Source: Corallococcus carmarthensis
GTDB taxonomy: Bacteria; Myxococcota; Myxococcia; Myxococcales; Myxococcaceae
Reading direction: 5' to 3'
Length of the DNA stretch: 35,150 nt
NCBI RefSeq assembly: GCF_003611695.1
Contig: NZ_RAWE01000090.1
Location: 1 to 35,150 of the forward strand
The notes beneath the pieces were generated by a model. The model searched no databases. It saw only the letters and a list, made by a program, of their open reading frames with translations, and was not told the DNA's origin. Below are positions 11,486 to 29,734 of the stretch, piece by piece (the first letter of the stretch is position 1; each line of letters begins with the position of its first letter). A program made the translations under genes and the position numbers.

Positions 11486-11621
11486 GGAGCAGGCACCCGT
11501 TCGTGGAGGGGCGCCAAGTGGACCCGATTCCGCCACCGGGAGGAAGACCCGTTGCGGGCATCACGCCTCACTCCCTGGCGAGCACCTCCAGCAGCCTCCC
11601 GGTGACACGCTCTGGCCGGCA

Positions 11622-11674
11622 TGTGACAAGGCCGGCACAATCCCAGTCAGAGGGGGTGTCACAGGCGTGTGATA
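11622..11674. promoter_or_regulatory. Possible operator: TGTGACA-type half-sites
   Basis: TGTGACA (11622-11628), TGTCACA (11657-11663) and TGTGATA (11668-11674). The last two form an imperfect palindrome 30 bases before the lipoprotein start. They lie in the divergent space between the amidase and lipoprotein genes. A direct repeat GGCCGGCA overlaps the first. No factor can be named. Confidence 0.3.
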
Positions 11675-11702
11675 AATGGAACTCCTCACCTGGAGACCCC
11701 CC

Positions 11703-12593
11703 ATGCGTCTACGCGCCCTTGCCTTGACCTGCTTCGCCGCGCTCGCGGCCTGTGACAACACCCCCATTGAATCCGAGTCCCCGGAGGAGCTGGGCGTCAG
11801 CACCGCCGCGGAGACGGCGACCCGCCTCTACGCCACGGTGGGCAACAACGAGCTGAGCTTCGAGACGCTCGGCACCTTCGAGCAGCGTGACGGCGTCCGA
11901 GCCCTCGTCATCCACGCCACCGCGAACCGCTACCTCGCGGACGTCCTCAGCTTCGTCCCCGATGACGCCTTCGGCGACGCGAACATCATCAGCGAGCGCC
12001 GGTTCGAGATCGTCCTGCACGACGGCTACGAGCTCAACACGGTGCTCTCCGGCCTGCCGCTCTTCGTCAAGGTCACCACGAACACGGGAACGCCGCGCGC
12101 GTACACCGCGCGCATCGTGGTGGCCCCGCGCTTCTTCGACTTCCGCGGCGACTCGGGCATCTGGATCGACGAGGCGGTCACCCCCCGCTACGTCGTCCAG
12201 CCGAACAACAACCTCCTGTACCGGGGCCACGCCGCGGTCTCCGGGTACACCGACTGGCTCACCGTCACGGCGCCCGACGGCATCCCGTCCGTCTACGGCC
12301 GGCCCAACTACAAGCTCGACTGGGCGTACCCGACGCTCCAGCAGGCCATGGACCCGCACACGATCCCGCTCAACTTCAGCGCGGGGGGCGACAACGGCGC
12401 GACGATGCAGAAGACCGCCCGGCTCGTGGCGCGCGTGACGGAGCTCGCGCTCACCGACGGCGACGCCTACGACGTCTGGCCCAGCCCGGACTGCGACCCC
12501 ACCGTCTACAGCTGCTACCACTCGCAGCCCGCGGGCACGACGGACTTCAGCCAGTGCGGCACCTACCGCCAGGTCCTGCGCTGCACGTACTGA
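11703..12593 (+). CDS. Unknown lipoprotein
   Basis: 296 residues. The N-terminus is a lipoprotein signal (MRLRALALTCFAALAAC, lipobox LAAC), so the mature protein should be lipidated and anchored in the envelope. Asp at +2 (CDN) resembles inner-membrane retention in enterobacteria, but that rule may not hold here. The mature part is strand-rich and Tyr/Asn-rich, with a C-terminal segment carrying four cysteines (DCDPTVYSCYH, FSQCG, LRC). No family is recognised. The start is ATG 11703, with GGAG eight bases upstream; the in-frame ATG at 11676 would bury the lipobox deeper. Confidence 0.8.
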   Translation: MRLRALALTCFAALAACDNTPIESESPEELGVSTAAETATRLYATVGNNELSFETLGTFEQRDGVRALVIHATANRYLADVLSFVPDDAFGDANIISERRFEIVLHDGYELNTVLSGLPLFVKVTTNTGTPRAYTARIVVAPRFFDFRGDSGIWIDEAVTPRYVVQPNNNLLYRGHAAVSGYTDWLTVTAPDGIPSVYGRPNYKLDWAYPTLQQAMDPHTIPLNFSAGGDNGATMQKTARLVARVTELALTDGDAYDVWPSPDCDPTVYSCYHSQPAGTTDFSQCGTYRQVLRCTY

Positions 12594-17163: not shown

Positions 17164-17970
17164 ATGACCCTGCAATGGAAGAACCGCGGCTCACTCATTC
17201 GTAACGCAGTCGGACTCGGATTGGGCGTCGGGCTGCTGTTCGCCGCGACGCCGGGCATCGCCAGGGACGCGCAGGGCGAAGGCTGCGCGTGGTTCTCCGG
17301 CGTGGAGCACTGCCCAGTCGGAGCCGCGGAGCTGTCCGTCACGGACGAGGGGTTGCTCATCAAGAGCGCGGATGGCGGACCGGGTGGCGTGAGCCTTCAT
17401 CTGGAGGGCGCCTCCGGCTGGGATGCCTGGCTGAGCCCGCTGGAGCCGGACTGGAACAGCCGGATGCTGTTGACCTTCATCGGCGCCCGGCCGGACGGCA
17501 CACCGGAGCTGCTGGAGCGGGTGGTCGTGGCACGCTCGAAGGCGGAGAACCTGGGCGCCATCTACGTGGACCCCTCGGTCCACGGGGCCTCCACCTACAC
17601 CGTGAGAGGCTACGTCGGCGGGCAGCTGGCCTTCGAACGCTTCGGCGTCGCGCCCGTCCCAGAGGCTTTCGGTGGCCCGGCGGGTCCAGGGGACGACGCG
17701 AAGTTCTCCCGGCTCGTGGCCTTCCCCGGGAAGTGGGGCAGCGGCCACGGCGTCATCGCCGGCCCCAATGGGGAAACCTGCACGGAGGGCGTGGATTTTC
17801 CGTTCCCCCGGCCCGTCCGTTTCCCCGACCGCAGCCTGTCGGTCGCGGTGGACCTGGTCACCTTCCAGCCCGAGGGCATCAATCCCAAGGCAGCCACGCT
17901 CCGCGAGGTGTCCCTTCAGGGAGTGGGACTGGAAAGCTTCACCCTCCAGAAAGTGGCGCGCACGCCCTGA
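17164..17970 (+). CDS. Unknown secreted protein
   Basis: 268 residues with an N-terminal signal (positively charged MTLQWKNRGSLIRN, hydrophobic core, ending around GIA-RDA). The mature part is strand-rich with few charged helices; a cysteine pair (GCAWFSGVEHC) lies at its start and a lone Cys in GETCTEG. No family is recognised. ATG 17164 follows GGAGAAAA; the in-frame ATG at 17032 would add 44 residues of low-complexity sequence ahead of the signal. The 223 bases before it hold no gene or clear promoter; a TGGC-like near-match there has the wrong spacing. Confidence 0.75.
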   Translation: MTLQWKNRGSLIRNAVGLGLGVGLLFAATPGIARDAQGEGCAWFSGVEHCPVGAAELSVTDEGLLIKSADGGPGGVSLHLEGASGWDAWLSPLEPDWNSRMLLTFIGARPDGTPELLERVVVARSKAENLGAIYVDPSVHGASTYTVRGYVGGQLAFERFGVAPVPEAFGGPAGPGDDAKFSRLVAFPGKWGSGHGVIAGPNGETCTEGVDFPFPRPVRFPDRSLSVAVDLVTFQPEGINPKAATLREVSLQGVGLESFTLQKVARTP

Positions 17971-18009
17971 TGTCTGCCGTTCGATAGGCTTCAGGCTCTT
18001 TCACGTGTA

Positions 18010-18032
18010 GCGGGATGCGCTACGAATCCCGC
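18010..18032 (+). terminator. Hairpin after secreted-protein gene
   Basis: GCGGGAT / ATCCCGC with a nine-base loop, 39 bases after the stop at 17970. Weak candidate terminator. Confidence 0.4.
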
Positions 18033-18129
18033 GATGCGCGTAGCCATTCCTGTCACAGCCGTCCAGGCATTGCCGTGCCTGGCATCCCAGCATCCTGTTC
18101 ACGTCTGCACTTGTCGTTGAACGCAACCC

Positions 18130-18354
18130 TTGCCCCGAGTCGCTCATGAAAATCCAAGCCCTCCCCTCACTCTGGATGGGAACGAAGTGGCTCGGGTTCC
18201 CGTGACGTTCGAAACCACGTCCCTGACCCCTCCCACCCGCCTGGTGTCCATCAGCAAGGCGAGGATCCGGGTGGCCGCCCTGTTCGAGCCCGCCCACGCC
18301 ACCGTCTACTCCGTCGTCATGGCGAATGGCCGGATCACCGTGGTCATCCACTGA
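18130..18354 (+). CDS. Small unknown protein (possible fragment)
   Basis: Up to 74 residues from a TTG at 18130. From about residue 14 the frame has strong coding character (G/C third positions; VARVPVTFETTS, then ATVYSVVMANGRITVVIH), and the last 40 residues look like beta strands. There is no good ribosome site. The stop is followed 23 bases later by a 12-bp hairpin, which supports a real transcript end. It may be a short gene or the 3' remnant of a larger one; function unknown. Confidence 0.4.
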   Translation: MPRVAHENPSPPLTLDGNEVARVPVTFETTSLTPPTRLVSISKARIRVAALFEPAHATVYSVVMANGRITVVIH

Positions 18355-18377
18355 CGTTCCACCCGGCCCCTCCCCCT

Positions 18378-18411
18378 CCGCCGGAGCGGGCACGTTCAGC
18401 CGCTCCGGCGG
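18378..18411 (+). terminator. Strong hairpin after small gene
   Basis: CCGCCGGAGCGG / CCGCTCCGGCGG, 12 perfect pairs with a ten-base loop. Between here and 18770 I see no gene, repeat or regulatory signal I can support. Confidence 0.6.
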
Positions 18412-18770
18412 CACCCGAGCAGGGTGCCGGCAACCGTGTGAATGAGACAATGCCTGTGATGCGCATGCCCCCAAGCTGGAGACGTCCGTCCGGTGACCCA
18501 AGCTTGAGCCTGCGAGGCCCTCTCCGCCAGCGCATCCCGAAGGGCATGCGCCAACACACGCGCTGGACCCGGGCCCTGTATCCGGCAACAGCCGATGCCT
18601 CTATCAATCCGCCTCACGCGGCAGGGCCGGATGCTCCATGCCTGTCGTTCTACCCGCAACACCCGCCTGACGGGCGCTCGAACCCGGGTGGACCGACGCG
18701 GTCCATGAAACCGTCCCTGACGCTGCCGCGGGTCTGCTTCCTCGCGGGCCTCCCGTCATCACAGAGGTGG

Positions 18771-18814
18771 GCCGCCGCGCATCGCGTGGGTGTTCGGCGC
18801 GATGCGATGCGGCG
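18771..18814 (-). terminator. Imperfect hairpin after the gene at 18840
   Basis: GCATCGCG (18779-18786) pairs with CGCGATGC (18798-18805) across an 11-base loop. Flanking GCCGCC/GGCGGC extends the stem after an internal bulge. It lies 26 bases beyond the stop of the minus-strand gene. Confidence 0.45.
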
Positions 18815-18839
18815 GCGCCAGTTCAGCATCATGTGCTGG

Positions 18840-19301
18840 TCAGTCGTCCCGTCGAACCTCGAAGGTCGCGGTGACGTAGCCAGGGTCGGTCTGGACGTAG
18901 GCCAGGGTCTCCCCGTTCTTCGTGACGAAGAAATCGAAGTGATCCGTGACCCCAGTGTTGTCGGTGGTCTTCGCGGTGCCGCGACAGTTGGAGTCGAGGG
19001 TGTAGGTGCCAGAGTAGACGATGCGCGAACTCACCCCATTGGTATTGACGGTCGCCGAACCCGTCAAGGTTCCGTCCCCGCGGAAGACATCACGCCCCGC
19101 CTGTGCGAAGGGAATCCGCTCGGCTCCCGTCACGACGAACCCGGTGTTCGCGTAGACGTAGCTGCCTTTCAGCAGGGACAGCTTGCATTGGGAATGCATT
19201 GAAAGCTCCTCCTCCGGAGCCTCGCCGTAGGCATCGTGCGCAAGCCCCAGGAGACCGGCCGTGAGGACACTCCCCATGACGTACCATTGGAATCGCTTCA
19301 T
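18840..19301 (-). CDS. Unknown small secreted protein
   Basis: 153 residues. The N-terminus is a signal peptide (MKRFQWYVMGSVLTAGLLGLAHDAYG, cleaved near YGEA). The mature part resembles widely scattered bacterial secreted proteins with the pattern LKGSYVY..TGF, a FRGDGTLTGSA turn, then YSGTYTLDSNCRGTA, which suggests a small beta-sandwich or barrel. The two cysteines (QCKL and NCRG) could pair. No family name can be given. The start at ATG 19301 has a near-perfect ribosome site (AGGAGGGGGAGC). Its codon use looks less GC-biased than its neighbours, so transfer is possible. Confidence 0.8.
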   Translation of the reverse strand: MKRFQWYVMGSVLTAGLLGLAHDAYGEAPEEELSMHSQCKLSLLKGSYVYANTGFVVTGAERIPFAQAGRDVFRGDGTLTGSATVNTNGVSSRIVYSGTYTLDSNCRGTAKTTDNTGVTDHFDFFVTKNGETLAYVQTDPGYVTATFEVRRDD

Positions 19302-19452
19302 GCTCCCCCTCCTTCGTTTCGGGCCATCACGGCCCGATGCACTGGAGGCCGGAGAGTGAACGTGGCCCGGTCTTTCTCAAATCAGACGTGGGTCGGTCTG
19401 GGCCATGCAGTGCTGGACTGCGGGCGCCCCCCGAGTGCCTCCGCGCATGCGC

Positions 19453-19703
19453 CCGCTCAGGGCTCGCGGAAGCCGCCGCGCACCCACTCGTTGGCGATGT
19501 CCCGGGTGAACTTGAAGTTCACCGGCACGCGATGCTTCGCGACGGTCGCGCCAGCGTCGTCGATGGCCGCAAGCAGCGCGTGGGGCTCATACTCATCCGC
19601 CACCATCTCCAGCCGCACCTCGTACCAGCGGCCCTCCCAGGCGATGGAGAGCTTCTTGGTCATGGCCTGCTCGCGCTGCCGCGCGGAACGGTCCAGGACC
19701 TCC
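19453..19703. repeat. 251-bp direct repeat, copy 1
   Basis: Identical base for base to 23545-23795 (offset 4092), in the same orientation. The match starts and stops abruptly: 19452/23544 and 19704/23796 differ. It carries the last 80 codons and the stop of the gene seen whole at 23549. Confidence 0.95.
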
Positions 19704-19719
19704 ACAGAGCGGGCCGTCA
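19457..19719 (-). pseudogene. 5'-truncated copy of the gene at 23549
   Basis: The last 80 or so residues (EVLDRSARQ to the terminal GGFREP) are identical to the full gene at 23549-24031, while the first half is missing and replaced by unrelated sequence. A short open frame from an ATG at 19719 (MTARSV fused to the conserved part) could still be translated, but no ribosome site is evident. The identity at DNA level points to a recent duplication. Confidence 0.8.
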
Positions 19720-19763
19720 TCCTCTTCGTAACCCTAGACCTACAGCAACAGCATTGCGCCAAG

Positions 19764-19788
19764 CACCCATCGACCCAGTCGATGGGTG
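19764..19788. repeat. Short perfect inverted repeat
   Basis: CACCCATCGAC / GTCGATGGGTG, 11 pairs with a three-base loop, in the non-coding stretch between the truncated gene copy and the transposase remnant. It could be a terminator or part of a decayed element. Confidence 0.4.
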
Positions 19789-19852
19789 AGCATCCGAAGT
19801 CCTCAAGGAACGGGCCGAACCCTCGAGGCCCCCTTGGGGTACACGCCGTCCC

Positions 19853-19975
19853 TGGAGCGTGTCCGCAAACCAGAGCCAGAGACGAATGGAAGCGATGAGA
19901 ACCATCGCCAGGGAGTTGGCGGAGCGCTTTCGTAGCGCGTCGCTCCCAGCCAATGACCGGCCGACCCGTGCTCAC
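19853..19975 (-). mobile_element. Remnant of an IS5-type transposase C-terminus
   Basis: Read on the minus strand, three frames successively carry pieces of an IS5-like transposase end: GRPVIGWERRAT, RYE, then KRSANSLAMVLIASIRLWLWFADT. These resemble the WER..RYEKR..NYLA..L.A..I.LWLRF end of that family, joined across frameshifts. The rest of the element is gone, and no terminal repeats or target duplication could be identified. It sits between the truncated gene copy and the metallopeptidase-like gene. It is inactive. Confidence 0.5.
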
Positions 19976-20021
19976 GTCCTCCGGCGACGCCACGAAGACC
20001 GGGGTCAGGGGTGCCGGCGGC

Positions 20022-21320
20022 TCACGGGAAGTCCTTGGCCAGCGGGAAGAGGCCGTCCGCGGACGGAGCCTCGTCGCTGCCGACCGTGGCCTGCTCGTCA
20101 CAGAAGGCAGCGGCCTGCTCGATCCGCGCCTGCACCACGCCCTCGTGCTCCGGCCGGGTGCTGTACTGGTACGCCCGGGCGCGGCGCAGCCAGAGCGCCG
20201 CCTGGCGGAACCGGCTGGCGCCGCCGTCCGGCCGTTTGTTGATGTTCTCCAGGTAGCCGTTGGACCGGAACAACGCCAGGTGCCGAACCAGGTAGGTGAT
20301 CACCGCGGTGGCCAGCTCCTCGGGCAACAGCCGGATCTGCGCGAGCGGGTCGCCGTCGAGCTCCTTGCGGACGTGCCAGTGCACGTGCCGGGCGGCGAAC
20401 TCCTCGACGAACATGCTGAGCATCCTCCCGCTGCGCTGCTCCGTGTTGACGCTGAGCGCCACGGATAGCGCCGGGTCGACGTACGTGCCGGGATCGCCGT
20501 CCGGGGTAGCCAGCAGCGCGTCTGCGTTGGGCTGGTTGCGGAAGTGGGTCAGCTCGTGCACCAGCACCTCGGTCAACGAGACCGGTAGCGACGCGTTGGT
20601 GGCCGACAGCGTGATCCGTGCCTTGCCGCGGAACACCGAGTCGGAGACCGCGATCAGCCCGAACGTGGCGCCGGCGGTGTCGTGGAACGAGACCGTGGTG
20701 CCGAGCGTGTCGGACTCGACCGGCCGGCCGGGTGCGGTGGACAGCTGGTCAATCAGCGTGTCGACCATCAGCCTGGCCCCAACGCCGCCGGCCTGCACCG
20801 GTGCCGCCCGGTCCAGTACGAGTTGGCGCAGGTCCCGGATCCGACTGAACGCGACGATGCCGGTCAGCTCGCCGGAGTTCAGCGGCGCGAGCGCGCGCAT
20901 CGCGGTCATGTGCCGCCACGAGTTCAACGGCGCCGAGATCAGCTCGGCAAGCACCGCGGCGATCATCGGGTCCACCCGGCGGTGCAGCACCAGCGGGCTG
21001 AACTCGCGGAACGCTGGGTCCAACTCTGGCGGGTCGACCGCGAACGCCGCGTCCAGCGCACCCATCGTGCCAGGGCCGACGACCGGGTCGGTCGGCTGCA
21101 GTCCCTGGCCGGCCTTGAACTGGCTCACCGCGGTACCGGTGTCGGCGCCGAAGTTGCCGTCCAACCCCTTCAGCCCGACGGGCAGGCCAAGGTCCTGCAG
21201 GGCTGCCTGCACCCGGAGCACCATCAGTCCCTCCTCGGGCGCCCGCAGCCGTCGGCCGGGGTCGGCCAGGCACTGCTCGAGATCGGGGTCGCCGGCAAAC
21301 CGGAGCGCTCGGAGCGGCAT
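20022..21320 (-). CDS. Peptidoglycan-binding-like plus HExxH protein, possibly transferred
   Basis: 432 residues. Residues 28-95 look like a peptidoglycan-binding domain (VLRVQAALQDLG, then LDGNFGADTGTAVSQFKAGQGL, ending VGPGTMGALD). A later segment has HELTH (255-259) with a downstream EEFAARH (306-312) that could supply the third zinc ligand, so a gluzincin-type metallopeptidase is plausible. No signal peptide is seen, so it is cytoplasmic or exported by another route. The start is ATG 21320, preceded by a strong AGGGAGG. Codon style differs by impression from neighbours and recalls actinobacteria, and a transposase scrap adjoins its 3' end, so acquisition by transfer is inferred. An alternative is a non-enzymatic fold with a chance HExxH. 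Confidence 0.7.
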   Translation of the reverse strand: MPLRALRFAGDPDLEQCLADPGRRLRAPEEGLMVLRVQAALQDLGLPVGLKGLDGNFGADTGTAVSQFKAGQGLQPTDPVVGPGTMGALDAAFAVDPPELDPAFREFSPLVLHRRVDPMIAAVLAELISAPLNSWRHMTAMRALAPLNSGELTGIVAFSRIRDLRQLVLDRAAPVQAGGVGARLMVDTLIDQLSTAPGRPVESDTLGTTVSFHDTAGATFGLIAVSDSVFRGKARITLSATNASLPVSLTEVLVHELTHFRNQPNADALLATPDGDPGTYVDPALSVALSVNTEQRSGRMLSMFVEEFAARHVHWHVRKELDGDPLAQIRLLPEELATAVITYLVRHLALFRSNGYLENINKRPDGGASRFRQAALWLRRARAYQYSTRPEHEGVVQARIEQAAAFCDEQATVGSDEAPSADGLFPLAKDFP

Positions 21321-21353
21321 GGTCGTTCCTCCCTGAACGGATGATGGACTCAT

Positions 21354-21747
21354 GATTTATGCACTGCGGACGGTGCTCGCGACGGAGTGCTCAGGGCGGC
21401 CATTGCTCGGACGGCCGCGCCGAGGCTTCAGGCGCTTGACCCATTCAGGCTGGAGTTCAGCACGCGCATCGCGCCCGGACCGCTCAACAAACCGCACGGC
21501 TGACGTCACACCCGGTCCCTGCCGCACTCGAACCCTCGTGGAGAGGCTTGGCTCTCAATCCAAGCTGGGAGCCGAGTCGAAACCCAAACGCTTTACGCCA
21601 GAAAGCACGACCCGGAAACCAGAGACAACGACCCGGTCGCCACGCGAATGGACGTCCTCGAGAGGAAATTCAAATTCACATTCACGCGGAACCCACCATA
21701 CTGCTGGCGTGAGCAGTGCCACGACCGACCATCGAGTCCCTTCCAAC
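21354..21747. other. Intergenic region, no gene seen
   Basis: Divergent spacer between the metallopeptidase-like gene and the lipoprotein. Its composition is less GC-rich toward 21670, where TTCAAATTCACATTCAC lies upstream of a possible -10-like CATACT. No tRNA, repeat or clear sigma-54 site is visible. It may be residual DNA from the insertion of the neighbouring foreign-looking gene. Confidence 0.4.
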
Positions 21748-22542
21748 ATGCCTTCACGTTCCTTTCGCCATACCGTCAGCCTCACCGCCACCCTGGGCCT
21801 CTGCGCTTGCGGTGGTCCTGACAACACCTACCTGCTCGACTTCGTCTACGGCTCGGACACCATCCTGGTGGCCCCGGACAACAGCGGCTCCGAGCTGGCC
21901 CCGGCCACCTTCGTCTCGCTCGACGGACTCTTTTTCAAGGTGGAGACCCTGACCTTCAGGCTGGCGGACCTGCGGATGGACCTGCCGCCCGAAGTGCGCT
22001 GCCAGGACTACGAAGACGTGCTCTCCCCGGAGATGTCCTGTGAGGACTCCGTGGCGGGCCGGCCTGGCGCGCTTCACCTCCCGGACCCCGTGGAGGTGGG
22101 CACCGGCAAGCGCCTGTCCGTGGGGGGCGAGCAGGTGTTCATCCCCCGCGTCTATTATCCCGCCATCGACACGCGATGGGTCCCGGGGACACCGGAGCAC
22201 CCCAGCTTCCAGCTTCGCGCGCGCTTCACCTACCAGGGGGAGCCCCACGTGTTGGAGTTCGCCTTCCAGTCGGACGAGCCCATGCGCTTCGAACGCCGGG
22301 GCATATCGACGGGACTGCCCAAGGAGTTCTCGGATCATCCCGCCGCCTTCGGCGGAAGCCTGGACATGGATGACGGGCTCGCGGGCACCGACATCTCGGG
22401 CTGCCTGGCGACCGGGGACCTGACCCTGGACGGGAACGTGCTGCGGCTGGAGACCGGGCGGGGCGCCTGTGCGGATGCCGCCACGAACATGCGGCTCAGC
22501 ATCCAGCGGAGTGGTGACCTGTTCACCGGGCTGCGCCTGTAG
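21748..22542 (+). CDS. Unknown lipoprotein
   Basis: 264 residues. The signal MPSRSFRHTVSLTATLGLCAC ends in the lipobox LCAC, so the protein is probably lipidated at the second cysteine. The mature region is strand-rich and acidic (FVYGSDTILVAPDNSGSEL, then VSLDGLFFKVETLTFRLADL) with a later SLDMDDGLAGTD stretch. Three further cysteines are scattered through it. I recognise no family. The start is ATG 21748, which puts the signal at the N-terminus; the open frame extends to 21352 but that part reads as non-coding. The ribosome site is weak. Confidence 0.78.
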   Translation: MPSRSFRHTVSLTATLGLCACGGPDNTYLLDFVYGSDTILVAPDNSGSELAPATFVSLDGLFFKVETLTFRLADLRMDLPPEVRCQDYEDVLSPEMSCEDSVAGRPGALHLPDPVEVGTGKRLSVGGEQVFIPRVYYPAIDTRWVPGTPEHPSFQLRARFTYQGEPHVLEFAFQSDEPMRFERRGISTGLPKEFSDHPAAFGGSLDMDDGLAGTDISGCLATGDLTLDGNVLRLETGRGACADAATNMRLSIQRSGDLFTGLRL

Positions 22543-22641
22543 ACACGCTCCCCTGCCGGCCTTCTCGTCACAGCGAGGATCCGTGTTATTGCCCGCACCC
22601 TCCATCACGACGTACCAATGATTTTTGGGATTGTCAGCGCG

Positions 22642-23454
22642 CTACAAGGAATACGTCTCACGGCGCGCGTCGTTGATCACGAAGATCCGGCCGCCCACCG
22701 CGAAGACCAGCTCCTCACCCGGCAGTCCGTCTTGCTGGTAGTGCGACATGTCATTCCACCCACCGACGGTGTATTCGCGGAAGCCTCGATCCAGCAGGGA
22801 GAAAATCCTGACGTTATCGCCCTCGGTGAAGACCAGCTCTTCGCCCGCGTTTCCATCCGTCTCCACCGGCTGCACCGACGTCCAGGGGCCCGCGTCGTAG
22901 GTCCACCAACTCTGGGTGGCATGGCTGATGACCCTCAGCCGCGGTCCATCGATGACGTACAGCTCCCTGCCCGGCTGGCCATCCAGGTCCAGGGCAGCCA
23001 GCACCGACCATGTGCCCACGGGATAGACTTTCGACGTGCGGTCGCGCTGCGTGACCACCGTGATGTTGAACCCCCCGGACACATACAGTTCGTCGCCCGG
23101 CTGGCCATCCAGGTCCGCGAAGCCCGCCCCGTACCAGGCGCCGACGTTGTAGGAGTCCGTCGACAGGGTCCGGTGGGTCACCACTGCCGCGGAGCCGTCC
23201 TGGATGAACAGGAGTTCACAGCCAGGGGCGCCGTCCATCTCCAGGGGCAGCATCAAATTCCAGGCACCGGGCGAATAGACCCGCGTCGTTCCTCCGCCCG
23301 CGATGGTGACGGTGTCGCCGGAGACGACCACGGTGTCCTCCACCCCATCGCCATTCAGGTCCAGACACTCCTCTGTCTGCGCATGCGCGACGGGTGTCAG
23401 AGCTGCCCAGAAACCCACCACGGCGACCGCCCACATGCCTTCCCATCGCTTCAT
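22642..23454 (-). CDS. Secreted six-repeat propeller-like protein
   Basis: 270 residues with a signal peptide (1-26, ending VAHAQ). The mature part consists of about six repeats of 40-43 residues with the consensus (L/D)xDGxPGxEL(Y/V)V, eight or so residues with alternating Val/Ile, then Y.VG.W. Repeats begin near DLNGDGVED, EMDGAPGCEL, DLDGQPGDEL, DLDGQPGREL, ETDGNAGEEL and QQDGLPGEEL. The DxDGxxGxE turn resembles FG-GAP/VCBS-type calcium-binding loops, so a six- or seven-bladed beta-propeller on the cell surface is likely. No enzymatic motif is seen. ATG 23454 has GGGAGG upstream. It lies inside the block bounded by the 251-bp repeats. Confidence 0.82.
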   Translation of the reverse strand: MKRWEGMWAVAVVGFWAALTPVAHAQTEECLDLNGDGVEDTVVVSGDTVTIAGGGTTRVYSPGAWNLMLPLEMDGAPGCELLFIQDGSAAVVTHRTLSTDSYNVGAWYGAGFADLDGQPGDELYVSGGFNITVVTQRDRTSKVYPVGTWSVLAALDLDGQPGRELYVIDGPRLRVISHATQSWWTYDAGPWTSVQPVETDGNAGEELVFTEGDNVRIFSLLDRGFREYTVGGWNDMSHYQQDGLPGEELVFAVGGRIFVINDARRETYSL

Positions 23455-23544
23455 GAATGCCTCCCTTTCGATAGAGGCCAGTCATAGCATCCATGAATGA
23501 TGGGAGAACAAATAAGTCTGCCTTTGCGGTGAAGGTCTGAGAAT

Positions 23545-23795
23545 CCGCTCAGGGCTCGCGGAAGCCGCCGCGCACCCACTCGTTGGCGATGTCCCGGGTG
23601 AACTTGAAGTTCACCGGCACGCGATGCTTCGCGACGGTCGCGCCAGCGTCGTCGATGGCCGCAAGCAGCGCGTGGGGCTCATACTCATCCGCCACCATCT
23701 CCAGCCGCACCTCGTACCAGCGGCCCTCCCAGGCGATGGAGAGCTTCTTGGTCATGGCCTGCTCGCGCTGCCGCGCGGAACGGTCCAGGACCTCC
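23545..23795. repeat. 251-bp direct repeat, copy 2
   Basis: Identical to 19453-19703. This copy lies within the complete gene and is probably the source. Recombination between the two copies would remove 4092 bp. Confidence 0.95.
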
Positions 23796-24031
23796 GAGGC
23801 CGTCTTCACGAACGTCGCGAACGCCGTCGCGTCGAAGGGCTTGGGATTCTTCTTGTCGCGGCCCATCACCCACGGGCTGATGAGGGCGGGCTCGGAGAGG
23901 CCCTGCTTGCGGATTTCCACGGCCCAGCCGTCGTCCTCCTCGTTCTTGATGACCCTGGCCGACCAGCCATTCTTCCGCCAGAACGTGGGCTCCATGACCT
24001 CGGGTTCGGCGGGCGTGCGCTCATTGCTCAT
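23549..24031 (-). CDS. Unknown cytoplasmic protein (complete copy)
   Basis: 160 residues, no signal or membrane segment. It has a Trp-rich start (MEPTFWRKNGWSARVIKNEE), a middle GRDKKNPKPFDATAFATFVKTA and a C-terminal half with WEGRWYEVRLEMVADEYEPHALLAAID then VPVNFKFTRDIANEWVRGGFREP. No family is recognised. Two in-frame ATGs exist at 24037 and 24031; the second is chosen because GAGGA abuts the first but is six bases from the second. It is divergent from the sensor kinase gene with 60 bases between starts. Its 3' half is duplicated at 19457. Confidence 0.82.
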   Translation of the reverse strand: MSNERTPAEPEVMEPTFWRKNGWSARVIKNEEDDGWAVEIRKQGLSEPALISPWVMGRDKKNPKPFDATAFATFVKTASEVLDRSARQREQAMTKKLSIAWEGRWYEVRLEMVADEYEPHALLAAIDDAGATVAKHRVPVNFKFTRDIANEWVRGGFREP

Positions 24032-24091
24032 GGGCATTCCTCATACTCAACACCCCGCATGCCGGGGCCGAAATGTGTTGATGATGGGCGC

Positions 24092-25759
24092 ATGTCGCCG
24101 CCCCCGGCCCATCCCTCCCTGACCTCCCTCGTGCCCCCACCGGGCGAGCTTCTTCGCACGCAGCGAAAAGCGGGCCGGTCCGCCGTGGTCGGTCTGATGC
24201 TCCTCTGGGGCGCCGCCTTCGTGAGCCCCATCGTGACCTACCGGGCGGACGTGAAGGCGGCGGAGGGAGAGCTCCTCGCGCACCTGTCGGACCGCGCGGG
24301 CTTCCAGGCCCAGGCCCTTGGCGCACACCTCGGACTGCTGCACTCGGAGCTGGAGCGGCTCGCGGAGCACCCGTCGCTCAGACCCGAGGATGGCGTCGCG
24401 GGCCCCGAGGTCGCGCTCCTCGAGAATGCCTTCAGCCACACGACCCTCTTCCCGGCGGGAGTCGCGCTGGTGTCATCGGACGGCAAGCGCTTGTGGAGCG
24501 ACCCGGTGGGCATGCCGCTCGGGCGCACACCGCTCGCCTCGCGCATGTGGTTCCGGCGGATGGTGACAGACCGGGTCGCTTCGGTCGGACTGCTGGACGA
24601 GGAAGACGGAGGGCTCGTCGCGGTCGCGGTCCCCATCGTGCGCGACGAGCGTGTCGTGGGCCTCCTCGTGGGCGAGCTCGCGACGGCGAACGAGCTGCTC
24701 CCGACCCCTCGCGGGAAGAGCGAGTCCATGGTCGCCCTGCTCGGCGCGCACGGCCGGATCCTCCTGCCGGCAAAGCCCCCGCCACTGCTGCGCCAGCCGG
24801 AGCTCGCCACACGCCTGCGCCCGCTGGTGGACGCTCCCGGGGCCGTCACGCTCGGAAACACGCGGCTCCTCGGCGCGGCGGCGTTCGTTCCCGGAACCGG
24901 CATGCTGCTCGCCGTGCTCGAGGACGAGGCGCGGGACCGCGAGCTGCTCAAGCGCCGCTACCTCGGCCAGCTCGGCTTTCACACCGCGCTGCTCGGCGGC
25001 GTGCTCCTGCTCTTCACGGTGCTCCTGCGCCGCTCCTACCGTTCGCTGGTGGCCGCCGAAGAACAACTGCGGCGCCAGGAGACGATGGCGGCGCTCGGCA
25101 CGGCCTCCTCGCTCATCGCCCACGAGGTGAAGAACGCGCTCAACAGCATGCAGGCCGCGCTCAGCATGATTCGCGCGAAGGGAGGGGAAACGACCTTGCC
25201 CGTCCAGGCGCTGCGTTCCCAGGCGGACCGGCTGGGCCACCTTGCCCGCTCATTGCTGAGCTTTGCGTCCCCCCAGTCCACGCAGCGGCGCAGCTGCGAG
25301 ATGCACCTGCTGGTCCAGGACGCGCTTCAAGCCGTGCGGCTCCTGCCGGAAGCAGCGGACGTCGCCATCGAAACCACGCTGCAGGAGGGGCTCTTCGTGG
25401 AGGGAGATCCGACGCTGCTGGTCTCCGCTGTCGACAATCTCATGCGCAACGCCGTCGAAGCCGGTGCCGTGGCCCATGATATAGGCCAGCAGCCCACGCC
25501 TCGCGTCGAGGTCCGGCTCCTTCGCGAAGGTGGAGAGGTGGTGCTCGTCGTGGAGGACAACGCAGGAGGAGTTCCCCCCGCCTTCGAGCCGCGCCTCTGG
25601 GAGCCCTTCGCGGTGGGCCGGTCGAAGGGCATCGGGCTCGGGCTTCCCATGGTGCGCACGGCCATCCGTGCGCATGATGGGGGAAGCGTCTCCTACACCC
25701 GTGTGGCCGGAGGCAGCCGCTTCACGGTCCGCCTCCCGCTCGAGAAGATGGCGTCATGA
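24092..25759 (+). CDS. Membrane sensor histidine kinase
   Basis: 555 residues. Two transmembrane segments (about 31-49 and 295-313) enclose a periplasmic sensor region of some 245 residues with a dCache-like pattern (LVAVAVPIVRDERVVGLLVGEL). The cytoplasmic part has the phospho-accepting H344 in AHEVKNALN, an N-box (DNLMRNAVEA), a G1 box (VEDNAGGVPP), LWEPFAVG and a G2 box (KGIGLGL): all needed for autophosphorylation. No HAMP domain is obvious. Its stop overlaps the ATG of the regulator gene (ATGA, 25756-25759), so the two are a coupled pair. The start is ATG 24092, with an alternative in-frame ATG at 24059. The signal is unknown, but the genes downstream suggest inorganic carbon, pH or a related cue. 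Confidence 0.88.
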   Translation: MSPPPAHPSLTSLVPPPGELLRTQRKAGRSAVVGLMLLWGAAFVSPIVTYRADVKAAEGELLAHLSDRAGFQAQALGAHLGLLHSELERLAEHPSLRPEDGVAGPEVALLENAFSHTTLFPAGVALVSSDGKRLWSDPVGMPLGRTPLASRMWFRRMVTDRVASVGLLDEEDGGLVAVAVPIVRDERVVGLLVGELATANELLPTPRGKSESMVALLGAHGRILLPAKPPPLLRQPELATRLRPLVDAPGAVTLGNTRLLGAAAFVPGTGMLLAVLEDEARDRELLKRRYLGQLGFHTALLGGVLLLFTVLLRRSYRSLVAAEEQLRRQETMAALGTASSLIAHEVKNALNSMQAALSMIRAKGGETTLPVQALRSQADRLGHLARSLLSFASPQSTQRRSCEMHLLVQDALQAVRLLPEAADVAIETTLQEGLFVEGDPTLLVSAVDNLMRNAVEAGAVAHDIGQQPTPRVEVRLLREGGEVVLVVEDNAGGVPPAFEPRLWEPFAVGRSKGIGLGLPMVRTAIRAHDGGSVSYTRVAGGSRFTVRLPLEKMAS

Positions 25760-27108
25760 GCACCTCCCTGCTGCTCGTCGATGACGACAGGACCTTCTCC
25801 TCGCTCGCGGCATCCATGCTGAGCCAGGAAGGCTTCCGCGTCCGGGTTGCCCGCTCGCTGCATGAGACCCGCGCCGCGCTCGCCGCCGAGGCGCCGGACC
25901 TCGTCGTGCTGGATCGAAGGCTGCCGGACGGGGATGGGCTCGTCTTCCTGCCCGAGCTGCGTGCCCAGCTTCCGGCGACCGTCGTGCTGATGGTGACCGC
26001 GCACGGCGATATCGAGAGCGCTGTCGAAGCCATCCGCGCGGGCGCGCTCGACTACCTGAGCAAGCCGGTCGAGATTGACGACCTGGTGATGCGCGCGCGC
26101 CGCGCGGCCAGCGACCTCCAGCTCCAGGAACGGCTGCGCCAGGCCGAGAGCGTCCTTGAAGGACAGCATCGGATGGCGGAGCCCCGCTCGCCGTCGATGC
26201 AGCGAACCCTGGAGATGCTGGCGAGGATCGCCACCACTCCGCGGAGCCCCGTCCTGCTGCTCGGGGAGACCGGGACCGGGAAGGCGGTGCTCGCCCGCCA
26301 TCTCCACGCCTTGCGCCAGAAGCAGGGCGCCTTCGTGCAGATCAACTGCGCCGCGCTTCCGGACACGATGATGGAGAGCGAGCTCTTCGGACACGAGCGC
26401 GGCGCCTTCACGGATGCGAAGACGGCCAGGCGCGGGCTCGTGGAGCTCGCGAGCGATGGGCTGCTCTTTCTCGACGAGGTGGGTGAGCTGCCGCTCGCGC
26501 TCCAGGCCAAGCTGCTCACGTTTCTAGACAAGGGGGCCTTCCGAAGACTGGGTGGCACGACCGAGCTCACGAGCACCGCCCGCATCGTGGCGGCCACCAA
26601 CAAGGACCTCGAAGCGGAGGTCGCCGCCGGGCGCTTTCGCGAGGACCTCCTCTTCCGGCTCAGCGTGTTCCGCGTGGACGTGCCCCCCTTGCGCGAGCGT
26701 CGCGAGGACGTGCTGCCACTCGCACGGACGCTCGTGCTGGAGCTCTGCTCGGAGCTTGGCCGGCGCCCGGTCCCCTTCTCTCCCGCCGCGGAGGAGCGCC
26801 TGCTGAGCTACCCCTTCCCCGGCAATGTCCGGGAGCTGCGCAACGTGCTGGAGCGGGCGCTCGTGCTCGAGGGCGGGCCCACGCTCGAGCTGCAGGCGCT
26901 CGCCAAGGGGGGCGGCGCGCCGGCCCCGGTCGACCCCAACGCATTCTCCGTGTCAGGGCCACCCCGGCCGCTCGATGAAGTGGAGCGGCTCTATGTCCGG
27001 CACGTGCTCGAGCAGCTTGGCGGCAGGCGCATGGAGGCGGCCCGCGCACTGGGCCTGTCCTATCCGACCTTCCTCCGCCGCCTGGAGGAGAGCCCACCCT
27101 CGGAGTGA
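25756..27108 (+). CDS. NtrC-family response regulator with GAFTDA loop
   Basis: 450 residues. The receiver domain (1-120) has acidic D9-D11, phospho-acceptor D53 (VVLDRRLPDG), T81 and K103 (LSKPV). The AAA+ domain has Walker A GETGTGKA (170-177), GAFTDA (216-221) instead of GAFTGA, Walker B DGLLFLDEVGE (about 234-244) and LPLRERRED-like PPLRERRED. A Fis-type helix-turn-helix lies at the C-terminus (EAARALGLSYPTFLRRLEE). Gly-to-Asp in the sigma-54 contact loop is a departure from the consensus, though some natural regulators share it. It is the coupled partner of the kinase at 24092. The target is very probably the sigma-54 promoter at 27212, which lies about 100 bases past the stop. Confidence 0.9.
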   Translation: MSTSLLLVDDDRTFSSLAASMLSQEGFRVRVARSLHETRAALAAEAPDLVVLDRRLPDGDGLVFLPELRAQLPATVVLMVTAHGDIESAVEAIRAGALDYLSKPVEIDDLVMRARRAASDLQLQERLRQAESVLEGQHRMAEPRSPSMQRTLEMLARIATTPRSPVLLLGETGTGKAVLARHLHALRQKQGAFVQINCAALPDTMMESELFGHERGAFTDAKTARRGLVELASDGLLFLDEVGELPLALQAKLLTFLDKGAFRRLGGTTELTSTARIVAATNKDLEAEVAAGRFREDLLFRLSVFRVDVPPLRERREDVLPLARTLVLELCSELGRRPVPFSPAAEERLLSYPFPGNVRELRNVLERALVLEGGPTLELQALAKGGGAPAPVDPNAFSVSGPPRPLDEVERLYVRHVLEQLGGRRMEAARALGLSYPTFLRRLEESPPSE

Positions 27109-27162
27109 AGGACTTAAAAAGTCTTTCATCGGCTGAGTCGAGGGCTTCAAGTTTCTTTCATC
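27107..27162 (+). promoter_or_regulatory. Candidate activator-binding sites for the SulP promoter
   Basis: An AT-rich stretch with a near-perfect palindrome GAAGGACTT-AAA-AAGTCTTTC (27107-27127) and two direct copies of TCTTTCATC (27122-27130, 27154-27162) 32 bases apart, about three helical turns. They lie about 76-130 bases upstream of the predicted start, the usual zone for NtrC-type sites. The palindrome overlaps the regulator stop codon and could also act as its terminator. Confidence 0.5.
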
Positions 27163-27211
27163 CCCCGGTCCGGACGCGCCCCGCCCCAGGCGGAAGGGCC
27201 CTGAAACGGTC

Positions 27212-27226
27212 CGGCACGACGCTTGC
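27212..27226 (+). promoter_or_regulatory. Sigma-54 promoter of the SulP-carbonic anhydrase operon
   Basis: CGGCAC (27212-27217), five bases, TTGC (27223-27226). It differs from consensus only in its first base, and GG to GC spacing is 12. The predicted start is near 27238, giving a 51-base leader. Confidence 0.8.
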
Positions 27227-27233
27227 GTAGCAC

Positions 27234-27278
27234 CCCCTGTCACTTCGAGCCGCTGTACGGCTCGGCAGCTGACAGGGG
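27234..27278 (+). promoter_or_regulatory. Nested hairpin covering the ribosome site of the SulP gene
   Basis: Outer arms CCCCTGTCA (27234-27242) and TGACAGGGG (27270-27278) enclose a perfect inner hairpin CGAGCCG-CTGTA-CGGCTCG (27246-27264). The right outer arm contains the Shine-Dalgarno AGGGGAG, so folding would hide it. The predicted start at 27238 truncates the left arm to TGTCA, so the exact start decides how strong the lock is. It may alternatively be a DNA operator. Confidence 0.45.
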
Positions 27279-27288
27279 AGCGCAAGCA

Positions 27289-28851
27289 ATGACTTCGGGT
27301 GGAAAAGCTGCGGAGGAGAGGCCCTCGTTGAAGGGGATCCTCGCCTCGGATTTGCCGGCTTCGCTGGTGGTGTTCCTGGTGGCCCTGCCCCTCTGTATGG
27401 GCATCGCGCTCGCCTCCGGGGCGCCCATCATGGCGGGCCTCATCGCCGGCGTCGTGGGAGGCCTGGTGGTGGGCCTCCTGGGCGGCGTGCCGCTGCTCGT
27501 GAGTGGCCCCGCGGCGGGCCTCGCGGTGATGGTCTTTGGCTTCATCCAGCAGCTGGGCTTCGCCGTGACGTGCGCGGCGGTGGCCGCGGCGGGGCTCGTG
27601 CAGGTGGCGCTCGGCGGGCTGAAGGTGGCGCGTTCGGCGCTGGCCATCTCGCCGGCCGTGATCCACGGCATGCTCGCGGGCATCGGCATCCTCATCGTGC
27701 TGGGGCAGGTCCACATCGTTCTCGGTGGCTCTCCGCAGAGCAATGCCTGGAACAACCTGCGGGAGCTGCCCGGGCAGGTGCTCAACCTTCATGGAACGGC
27801 CACGCTGCTGGGCCTCCTGACGCTGGGAATCCTCATCGCATGGCAGTTCCTGCCGAACGGGCGGATGAAGAAGGTCCCGGGGCCGCTGGTGGCGGTCGTG
27901 GGCGGGACCGTGGTCGCGGCGGTGTTGAACGCGGACGTGGCACGGGTGCAGCTGGCGGCGAATGCGCTGTCGGCCATCCAGCTGCCGGCCCTTCCGGAAG
28001 GGTCCGCGTGGGGCGCCTTCGCCGTGGCCGTGCTGTCCCTCGCGCTCGTGGCGAGCGCCGAATCGCTCTTGAGCGCGGTGGCGACCGACAAGCTCCACAC
28101 GGGCGCGCGGGCGAACCTGGATCGCGAACTGCTGGCGCAGGGCGTGGCGAACACCCTCTCCGGTCTGGTCGGCGGTCTGCCCATCACCGGCGTCATCGTG
28201 CGCAGCGCGGCGAACATCAATGCCGGCGCGAAGACGCGCTGGTCCGCGGTGCTTCATGCGGTGTGGATGCTCGCCTTCGTGACCCTGCTGGGGGGGCTCG
28301 CGTCCTACGTGCCGCTGACGGTGCTCGCCGGCCTGCTCGTGCACGTGGGCCTGAAGCTCGTGAACCTCGCCCACATCCGGGAGCTCCGGCACCGGGGCGA
28401 GCTGCCGGTCTACCTCATCACCGTGGCCGGCGTCGTGGGCATCAACCTGCTCGCGGGCATCGGGCTCGGGCTCGGCGCGGCCATCCTCCGGCTCCTGTGG
28501 CAGTTGGGCCAGGTGCGCGTGGAGAGCCGCGACGCCAATGGCGTTCACCAGGTCTGCATCAGCGGAGCGCTGACGTTCGTCGGCGTGCCGAAGCTGTCGG
28601 CGGCGCTCGCGAAGATTCCCTCGGGCTCAAAGGTGGAGGTGGACGTGGCGGTGAACACGCTCGACCACTCCGGCTTCGAGGCGCTCGAGAGCTGGGCCGA
28701 CACGCATCGCAAGACGGGCGGCACCGTGACCATGGAGCCGCTCGAGGATGTCTGGACGCGGCGCAGCGCGCGTGCGGCTCCCGTTGTTGCTCCCCCCGCT
28801 TCCTCCCCTGTCCATCACGTCTCGTCTCTCGCTTCCGGAGGTGCTCAGTGA
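27289..28851 (+). CDS. SulP-family anion (probably bicarbonate) transporter
   Basis: 520 residues. After a short cytoplasmic N-terminus the protein has 10-12 hydrophobic spans with SulP features: DLPASLVVFLVALPLCMGIA near the start, a GVPLLVSGPAAGLAVMVFG segment and LPITGVIVRSAANINAG. A reduced STAS-like domain follows (about 430-505; ends DHSGFEALESW). SulP proteins carry sulfate, bicarbonate or other anions. Coupling to a carbonic anhydrase gene argues for bicarbonate: the stop overlaps the next start (GTGA, 28848-28851). ATG 27289 is preceded by AGGGGAG at ten bases. The C-terminal 30 residues are Ala/Pro/Ser-rich. Confidence 0.88.
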   Translation: MTSGGKAAEERPSLKGILASDLPASLVVFLVALPLCMGIALASGAPIMAGLIAGVVGGLVVGLLGGVPLLVSGPAAGLAVMVFGFIQQLGFAVTCAAVAAAGLVQVALGGLKVARSALAISPAVIHGMLAGIGILIVLGQVHIVLGGSPQSNAWNNLRELPGQVLNLHGTATLLGLLTLGILIAWQFLPNGRMKKVPGPLVAVVGGTVVAAVLNADVARVQLAANALSAIQLPALPEGSAWGAFAVAVLSLALVASAESLLSAVATDKLHTGARANLDRELLAQGVANTLSGLVGGLPITGVIVRSAANINAGAKTRWSAVLHAVWMLAFVTLLGGLASYVPLTVLAGLLVHVGLKLVNLAHIRELRHRGELPVYLITVAGVVGINLLAGIGLGLGAAILRLLWQLGQVRVESRDANGVHQVCISGALTFVGVPKLSAALAKIPSGSKVEVDVAVNTLDHSGFEALESWADTHRKTGGTVTMEPLEDVWTRRSARAAPVVAPPASSPVHHVSSLASGGAQ

Positions 28852-29543
28852 AGAAGCTCATCAGAGGTCTGCTCGATTTCCAGCGTCACACCCTGCCCTC
28901 CTACCGGGCGACCTTCGCGAGGCTCGCGAAGGGGCAATCCCCTGACTGCCTCTTCATCAGCTGCTCGGACAGCCGCGTGGTGCCCAACCTGCTCGTCTCC
29001 ACGGACCCCGGTGACCTCTTCACCGTGCGCAACGTGGGCAACCTCGTCCCGACGGCCTCGCTCAACGGACAGTCCACGGCGGACCGCTCGGAGGCGGCGG
29101 CGATCGAGTTCTCCCTGGGCTTCCTGCCCATCGAGGACGTCGTCGTCTGCGGACACTCGAGCTGCGGCGCGATGAAGGCGATCCTGGCCGGAGGCGCCGT
29201 GGACGGCGCACCGAACCTCGAGAAGTGGCTCGCGCACGGCAAGCCCTCGCTCAAGGCGTTGCAGGAGAACACCCAGGTGGGCGTGGGGCTGCCCGAGGCG
29301 GATCGCCTCTCCCAGCTGAACGTCCTCGAGCAGCTCGAGCACTTGAAGACCTACCCCATCGTGCGGGAGCGGCTCGCGGCGGGGACGCTGCGGCTGCACG
29401 GGTGGTGGTTCGACATCGGGGCGGCGCAGGTTCACGCCTACCGGTCCGACCTCGGCCGCTTCGTCCCCATCGACGAGACCGAGGGTGATCGGCTCCTGAT
29501 GGAGCTGTCGGACGAGCAGCCCGCGCTCCGCGCCGTCCAGTAG
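28848..29543 (+). CDS. Beta-class carbonic anhydrase
   Basis: 231 residues. It interconverts CO2 and bicarbonate using zinc. The ligands are visible: C39 in CSDSR, H103 and C106 in CGHSSCG, with the D41/R43 dyad present. RNVGNLVP and the LHGWWFDIGAAQVH segment near residue 185 are further family features, and the length is normal. No signal peptide, so cytoplasmic. The start is GTG 28848 with CGGAGG upstream, overlapping the transporter stop by four bases: a translationally coupled pair that would hydrate CO2 or use imported bicarbonate. A strong terminator follows at 29558. Confidence 0.95.
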   Translation: MKKLIRGLLDFQRHTLPSYRATFARLAKGQSPDCLFISCSDSRVVPNLLVSTDPGDLFTVRNVGNLVPTASLNGQSTADRSEAAAIEFSLGFLPIEDVVVCGHSSCGAMKAILAGGAVDGAPNLEKWLAHGKPSLKALQENTQVGVGLPEADRLSQLNVLEQLEHLKTYPIVRERLAAGTLRLHGWWFDIGAAQVHAYRSDLGRFVPIDETEGDRLLMELSDEQPALRAVQ

Positions 29544-29557
29544 GCCGGGCGGCATCG

Positions 29558-29597
29558 GGCCTCGGCGATCCCGCGTCCAGCGCGGATCGCCGAGGCT
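29558..29597 (+). terminator. Terminator after carbonic anhydrase
   Basis: CTCGGCGATCCCGCG (29561-29575) pairs with CGCGGATCGCCGAG (29581-29594) across a five-base loop with one bulged base; outer pairs extend it. It begins about 15 bases after the stop. There is no T-run. Confidence 0.7.
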
Positions 29598-29602
29598 CGG
29601 CT

Positions 29603-29734
29603 TCAGCCCGCGGCCGCAAGGAGGCAAGCCCCAACGTCAGGGACTTCCTGGAGGGGGGCGGTCCGCGGCCGCTGCGTCTGTCGGACGAGGCCGTGCGCTT
29701 CCTGACGGAACGGCTCCCCTTGGAGAAGAGCTGA
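29603..29734 (+). pseudogene. Gene remnant, C-terminal fragment
   Basis: A plus-strand frame without a plausible start ends in TGA at 29732-29734 and reads as a real protein tail (SPNVRDFLEGGG, then LRLSDEAVRFLTERLPLEKS) with coding-type third positions. It begins directly after the terminator hairpin. I take it for the 3' end of a lost gene; the family is unknown. Confidence 0.35.

Follow-up and report, generated by a model that had tools for sequence, protein, structure and literature searches.

Integrase-mediated islands, which tyrosine recombinases insert at the 3' ends of genes, are bordered by the intact gene at one end and by its displaced 3' end at the opposite one. The target duplications of the insertion sequences (IS) IS1 and IS5 measure 4-10 bp (PMC3031569). 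Insertion with long target duplication is known from Helicobacter pylori (Nobusato et al. 2000, as described in PMC1643837 and PMC3031569), where, according to the same two sources, the cases are often linked to restriction-modification genes. For Escherichia coli, Staphylococcus aureus and Streptococcus pyogenes, 10-18% of the variable segments were reported to be flanked by direct repeats, 66-94% of these repeats being shorter than 30 bp, and homology-assisted illegitimate recombination was proposed for some loci (PMC2884548). In the present study, we analysed a direct repeat of 251 bp that duplicates the 3' end of a conserved gene, here called G, in Corallococcus carmarthensis (RefSeq assembly GCF_003611695.1, contig NZ_RAWE01000090.1, positions 1-35,150 of the forward strand). 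This stretch of 35,150 bp, hereafter the window, is one entire contig of a draft genome of 10.79 Mb in 530 contigs. The results describe a real and recent partial gene duplication flanking a 3.8-kb stretch, and its kind is most likely already known; the recurrence of such duplications at the 3' end of one gene is the part most worth following. A literature search returned nothing that we recognised as describing such tail duplications around inserts in myxobacteria.

The 251-bp direct repeat and its junctions

The two copies of the repeat, at 19453-19703 and 23545-23795, are 100% identical over 251 bp and lie in direct orientation, with a spacing of 4092 bp and 3841 bp of DNA between them (19704-23544). 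The right copy, delimited by self-comparison of the window and read on the minus strand, consists of the last 247 nt of G, stop codon included, and 4 bp beyond the stop. G itself (23549..24037, minus strand) is an intact open reading frame (ORF) for a conserved protein of 162 amino acids (aa) and was recovered in 15 congeners. The left copy, also on the minus strand and recognised by self-comparison and by the congener search, is a fragment of the G 3' end without the 5' half of the gene. No other exact direct repeat of at least 25 bp occurs within the window, none of 100 shuffles gave a match to a 25-bp piece of the repeat when three mismatches were tolerated, and the 251 bp are present in the draft genome at these two positions only. 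Five dispersed direct repeats of at least 60 bp were found in 1.72 Mb, and that of the window is the longest and the only perfect one. Thus, the pair of identical repeats pointed out in the initial annotation, with one copy forming the 3' half of an intact gene, is real. Only 251 bp are duplicated and not the whole segment, so the two full segment copies expected of a tandem duplication are not present.

The left junction turned out to be more complex than an isolated fragment next to a transposase scrap, as it had first been described. The fragment is there, but it abuts the 107-bp 5' stub (19704..19810, minus strand) of a gene for a lipoprotein of the beta-lactamase family, here called lipo3, and the scrap lies 147 bp beyond the fragment. 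This gene is complete in relatives (Pfam Beta-lactamase) and decayed in the window, where it is fused to the left G fragment; the stub, recognised by comparison with relatives, carries two in-frame stops by eye and is changed at 5 of the 68 sites that are invariant in eight relatives. The body of lipo3 was not found in the C. carmarthensis genome, which holds nothing closer than 70% over 155 bp. The scrap (about 19851..19951, minus strand) corresponds by sequence comparison to the final 30 or so codons of a DDE transposase and is the only transposase trace seen within the block; Pfam gave no match to the scrap itself but assigned a related copy at another place in the genome to DDE_Tnp_1. A transposase scrap nearby is a feature in common with an IS or a composite transposon. 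In contrast to such elements, no flanking IS copies and no clear terminal inverted repeats were seen, and the duplication is far longer than those of IS1 and IS5 as given above.

The duplication is lineage-specific and recent, judging from the comparison of 16 genomes of the genus, including that of C. carmarthensis; the 15 congeners are labelled G001-G015. The repeat region is present in full once in each of the 15, at 90-95% identity, and a second tail copy of comparable length was found in none. The recent event proposed in the initial annotation is thereby upheld, by the comparison with relatives as well as by the absence of any difference over 251 bp next to a stub that had already decayed. 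From 0/251 changes in the fragment against 5/68 in the stub, it follows that the stub had decayed before the duplication arose, or that the copies have been homogenised. An older duplication kept identical by gene conversion would accommodate an unchanged fragment attached to a decayed stub; however, the identity extends exactly to both junctions and no congener shows a comparable tail fragment, and we consider this explanation improbable. An assembly artefact, that is, a chimeric join or a duplicated stretch in a draft short-read assembly, appears just as improbable: although the assembly is broken into 530 contigs and the repeat has nearly the length of the reads (2 x 250 bp) obtained for 23 Corallococcus strains, which may include this one (PMC6306037), the four junctions each have their own flanks, the lipo3 stub is decayed, and the lipo3 body is not found elsewhere.

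Tail copies of G and of other genes

Relatives of G were found in named genomes in 116 cases, and the best 80 of the 116 were examined as loci, each being searched for extra copies with its own G. These 80 comprise 35 loci from myxobacteria or deltaproteobacterial bins (561 kb, nine apparently congener contigs; 67-97% identity) and 45 others (44-53% identity), mostly from Burkholderiales, e.g. Pandoraea, Achromobacter and Variovorax. Downstream direct copies of the 3' end of the locus's own G were observed at three of the 35 loci. First, in an Archangium bin (L183), a 238-bp copy follows an insert of 647 bp with an ORF that was judged lipoprotein-like by eye. Second, in an Archangium metagenome bin (L192), a 189-bp copy follows an insert of 969 bp, and MazE and PemK/MazF-type toxin-antitoxin genes lie between G and the tail copy (10462-11690). 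Third, a deltaproteobacterial bin (L197) holds three tandem tail copies of 46-56 bp, one of them ending 3 nt short of the stop codon. None of the 80 loci yielded a direct copy of the 5' part of G, and the remaining extra hits were few, inverted and 22-53 bp long (73-91%). L183 and L192 have a common flank further downstream (78-80%, blastn), yet different inserts; their duplications may be independent or may go back to one old, converted duplication.

Direct repeats appear to be concentrated at G in these loci. A scan of the 35 loci for dispersed repeats listed eight direct repeats, two of them with G; the short copies of L197 fell below the scan. When three rows of one tandem array (L166) and L172 (73-bp gap) are left out, four direct repeats remain, all with more than 500 bp between the copies, and two of the four involve G, for which the chance is 0.02-0.03 at a base rate of about 6-7% of random pairs, which is our own estimate; with L172 kept, it is 0.03-0.04 at the same estimated base rate. 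The 45 other loci gave four direct-repeat rows, none of them with G.

The same architecture was observed at other genes of the window. In a survey of insertions in colinear pairs, with a tolerated gap limit of 60 bp and duplications counted from at least 45 bp, 41 clusters of gene-sized insertions were found, some clusters representing one site. The lipoprotein gene lipo1 lies in G003 between an intact lipo3 and a 45-52-bp copy of the lipo3 3' end, and the corresponding empty site is present in G010, G008 and G005, where an amidase gene and lipo3 adjoin directly. A further lipoprotein gene, lipo2, lies in G001 between lipo1 and a 102-bp copy of the lipo1 3' end (L149:10991-12194); the 102-bp copies differ at four positions, all past the stop codon, and the window and G004 read straight through the empty site. 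In both G001 and G003, the lipo genes are located on contigs other than that of G. Comparison with relatives places lipo1 of the window at 11676..12593 (plus strand), and a probable remnant of the lipo3 3' end (11558..11610, minus strand) between the amidase gene and lipo1 would be a probable trace of the lipo1 insertion.

These cases resemble the H. pylori type in the gene-sized inserts, in the long and variable direct target duplications, and in having been found by comparing related genomes. A direct target duplication of tens to hundreds of bp is present in the window (251 bp, 100%), its length varies between events (about 50, 102, 189, 238 and 251 bp), and an empty site exists for the G003 and G001 cases; none was found for the window in the 15 congeners. 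Unlike the H. pylori cases as those sources describe them, the cargo consists here of lipoprotein and other genes, with mazEF in L192, the cases sit at the 3' ends of genes, a position for which selection could be explanation enough, and the window is without an empty-site partner. The variable segments of E. coli, S. aureus and S. pyogenes likewise have direct-repeat flanks, but mostly of less than 30 bp compared with 251 bp in the window (PMC2884548).

The geometry is also that of an integrase-mediated island with the G 3' end as its attachment site. Although an intact gene opposite a displaced 3' end fits such an island, as do the tandem tail copies in L197, no integrase match was obtained for the three main genes of the block (the small ORFs were only partly tested), and the inserts of L183 and L192 (647 and 969 bp) are too small for an integrase or are filled by other genes. 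Moreover, the duplications at G start 247, 224, 119 and 49-56 nt from the stop, a different point in every case, which leaves no fixed crossover core. The ends of the window insert match as inverted repeats at 9 of 20 positions at best, and the five inserts compared have no clear terminal inverted repeats (best 9-13 of 20), no null having been computed for either figure. We regard an integrase-mediated island as very improbable. A site-specific enzyme in general is disfavoured, since the duplications start at differing points, no clear terminal inverted repeats were seen and none of the main genes matches an integrase; homologous or illegitimate recombination is likelier on these sequence features.

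Proposed insertion at the 3' end of G and its alternatives

Herein, we propose, with about an even chance of being right, that the 3841-bp stretch entered at the 3' end of G through an insertion with long target duplication. In other words, its arrival would have been accompanied by the duplication of 251 bp of target sequence, so that G remained whole and a copy of its last 247 nt and 4 bp more came to lie across the insert. We infer both that the stretch entered as a single piece and by what route. The join would most likely be non-site-specific, either one homologous crossover with a circular segment that carried a G tail or homology-assisted illegitimate recombination of the sort discussed for other loci (PMC2884548). 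Selection, and not the mechanism, may be the reason why the duplications are found at the 3' ends of genes.

Several observations weigh against this proposal. First, the gene next to the left fragment, here called gene D (153 aa, 18840..19301, minus strand), was found in three congeners on contigs other than that of G and adjoins G in 0 of 15, which leaves the window without an empty-site partner. The only left-flank DNA near G in congeners is the dispersed repeat at 18464-18665, which is inverted there and lies about 1 kb from G in G010 and 2 kb in G008. Second, the order amidase-lipo1-lipo3-lipo2 recurs in G006, and in G003 with a 50-bp remnant of lipo2; part of the block may thus have been resident before the event. 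Third, the bases past the intact G match those of G015 at 8 of 12 positions (p 0.001) and those of G007 at 5 of 6 (p 0.001) or 5 of 12 (p 0.12) in an ungapped test, the p values being uncorrected over 15 relatives and three lengths, and the flank of the fragment resembles no relative in the same test, as if the intact G had kept the ancestral flank and the fragment were the newcomer. Fourth, a target duplication of at least 45 bp was found in only 3 of the 41 insertion clusters, the window included, the other clusters ranging from an overlap of 31 bp to the gap limit of 60 bp, and the entry of the window in this survey comes from the fragment alone, with no shared left flank. In addition, the relatives taken as empty in the G001 and G003 cases might once have held the insert and lost it again through recombination, all three other genomes with tail copies of G are metagenome bins, and the window is a contig of a draft assembly.

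These points bear on the main alternative, which we consider possible but would not expect. In it, the genes of the block were resident and a 251-bp piece of G was copied, by template switching or as filler DNA at a break, to a junction at which most of lipo3 was deleted; the block would then be merely the distance between template and patch. It is kept at this level because of the missing empty-site partner, the possible residence of part of the block and the likeness of the flanks. A patch would suit the order of lipo3 and lipo2, which G006 and in part G003 show together with the amidase gene and lipo1, as well as the lack of the lipo3 body in the genome and the resemblance of the intact G flank to those of G015 and G007. 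However, such a patch would need to end by chance 4 bp past the stop of G, and duplicated tails of G or of other window genes around inserted cargo recur. A gapped test over 30 bp of flank gave it no support, with p below 0.05 for 1 of 15 relatives at the intact G and for 2 of 15 at the fragment.

The surroundings of G differ widely between the congeners. In 12 of the 15, nothing in the window matches the DNA that immediately adjoins G, and shared pieces occur only at a distance, among them the 0.2-kb dispersed repeat (G010, G008) and, 7 kb off in G002, the block of genes for a histidine kinase, a sigma-54 response regulator, a sulfate permease and a carbonic anhydrase (HK-CA block; 24074-29604, by profile matches). 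The HK-CA block is whole or nearly so in all 16 genomes of the genus (89-93% in the others); it adjoins the 5' side of G in the window and G014, adjoins the 3' side in G001 and G003, and lies more than 1 Mb from G in G012 and G013. Two Corallococcus genomes have been reported to show high overall synteny (PMC8466578), and the scrambling around G is therefore probably regional. The dispersed repeat of about 200 bp at 18464-18665 is found again in the C. carmarthensis genome at 86% and in several congeners at 71-84%.

RecA recombination between the copies should be able to excise 4092 bp, with G left whole. A loop-out of the block by homologous recombination had been suggested in the initial annotation; the geometry and the length of 251 bp permit it, the RecA threshold being given as about 30 bp (PMC2884548), but no deleted form was seen in the 15 congeners. 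Likewise, no deletion junction was found in the C. carmarthensis assembly, which holds no third place with the 251 bp. From the sequence, loop-out is plausible, and a difference between strains in having the block, likewise suggested in the initial annotation, is a prediction from it.

Gene content, the G protein and biological meaning

Three main genes occupy the 3841-bp stretch. The first (20022..21353, minus strand) encodes a 443-aa protein with a PG_binding_1 domain (Pfam) and, by eye, a HELTHF motif that is HExxH-like. In a phylum-wide search of 195 genomes at a cut-off of E 1e-15, it was found in one only, that of C. carmarthensis, and it had no match in a plasmid collection at 1e-10; it is probably a recent foreign gene. 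The second is lipo2 (21748..22542, plus strand, start chosen by eye), with whole-gene homologues in three congeners at 80-81% DNA identity. The third (22642..23454, minus strand) encodes a PA5033 family protein (NF052506, 3.6e-82). An Rfam search of 17500-25000 gave no match.

The G protein had no match in Pfam, NCBIfam or PHROG, nor in a sequence-profile search of the PDB. For its structure model (pLDDT 85), Foldseek returned PUR-alpha chains as the best match (E 0.006) and none at or below 0.001; VIA-align gave nine chains with Z of at least 5 and none with Z of at least 8, and its top rows (NanA, AcrIF24) probably reflect a common structural arrangement.

We also considered whether G is itself a mobile gene, and this was rejected: low sharing of flanks was seen in controls as well, and the region is scrambled. 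Common flanks were observed for G in 7 of 105 genome pairs, compared with 98/105 for a NUDIX gene of its size, 21/105 for the amidase gene and 25/120 for the HK-CA block; the pairs are not independent and the controls are few. In the 120-kb neighbourhoods of G, many pairs still have common pieces at differing distances, a pattern that fits scrambling of the region better than jumping of the gene.

Short matches to G were observed elsewhere in the genus. G015 has, at a second locus (L306:6658-6730), a 74-bp piece of the 5' half of G that is 93% identical to its own G; together with the NUDIX control gene, which gave no extra match in the 16 genomes, this is only suggestive of footprints of G elsewhere. 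Three congeners have one further G hit each of 34-38 bp, and inspection suggests that two of these are chance matches. The third, in G002 (L018:1491-1538, 1.7 Mb from G), matches the last bases of G over 38 bp at 89%, in frame with the stop, and could be a tiny remnant of a G tail or chance. Many further matches of 18-54 bp with E above 1e-4 were taken as chance.

Myxobacterial genomes are large patchworks, and the way in which single genes come to lie between conserved neighbours has yet to be settled. If some insertions do duplicate the tails of genes, such tails would mark recent arrivals and would provide them with a built-in exit by homologous recombination, and G would be a concrete, testable site at which to watch the gain and loss of single genes. 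We tentatively extend this to a more doubtful idea, namely that myxobacteria have a standing, enzyme-free docking site in the 3' end of G, where cargo linked to part of the G tail would move in and out by homologous recombination that always restores G, the window being the freshest case and the tail copies its footprints. Should this idea hold, strains would swap single genes, such as those for lipoproteins or toxin-antitoxin pairs, at a single conserved location and without a transposase or an integrase.

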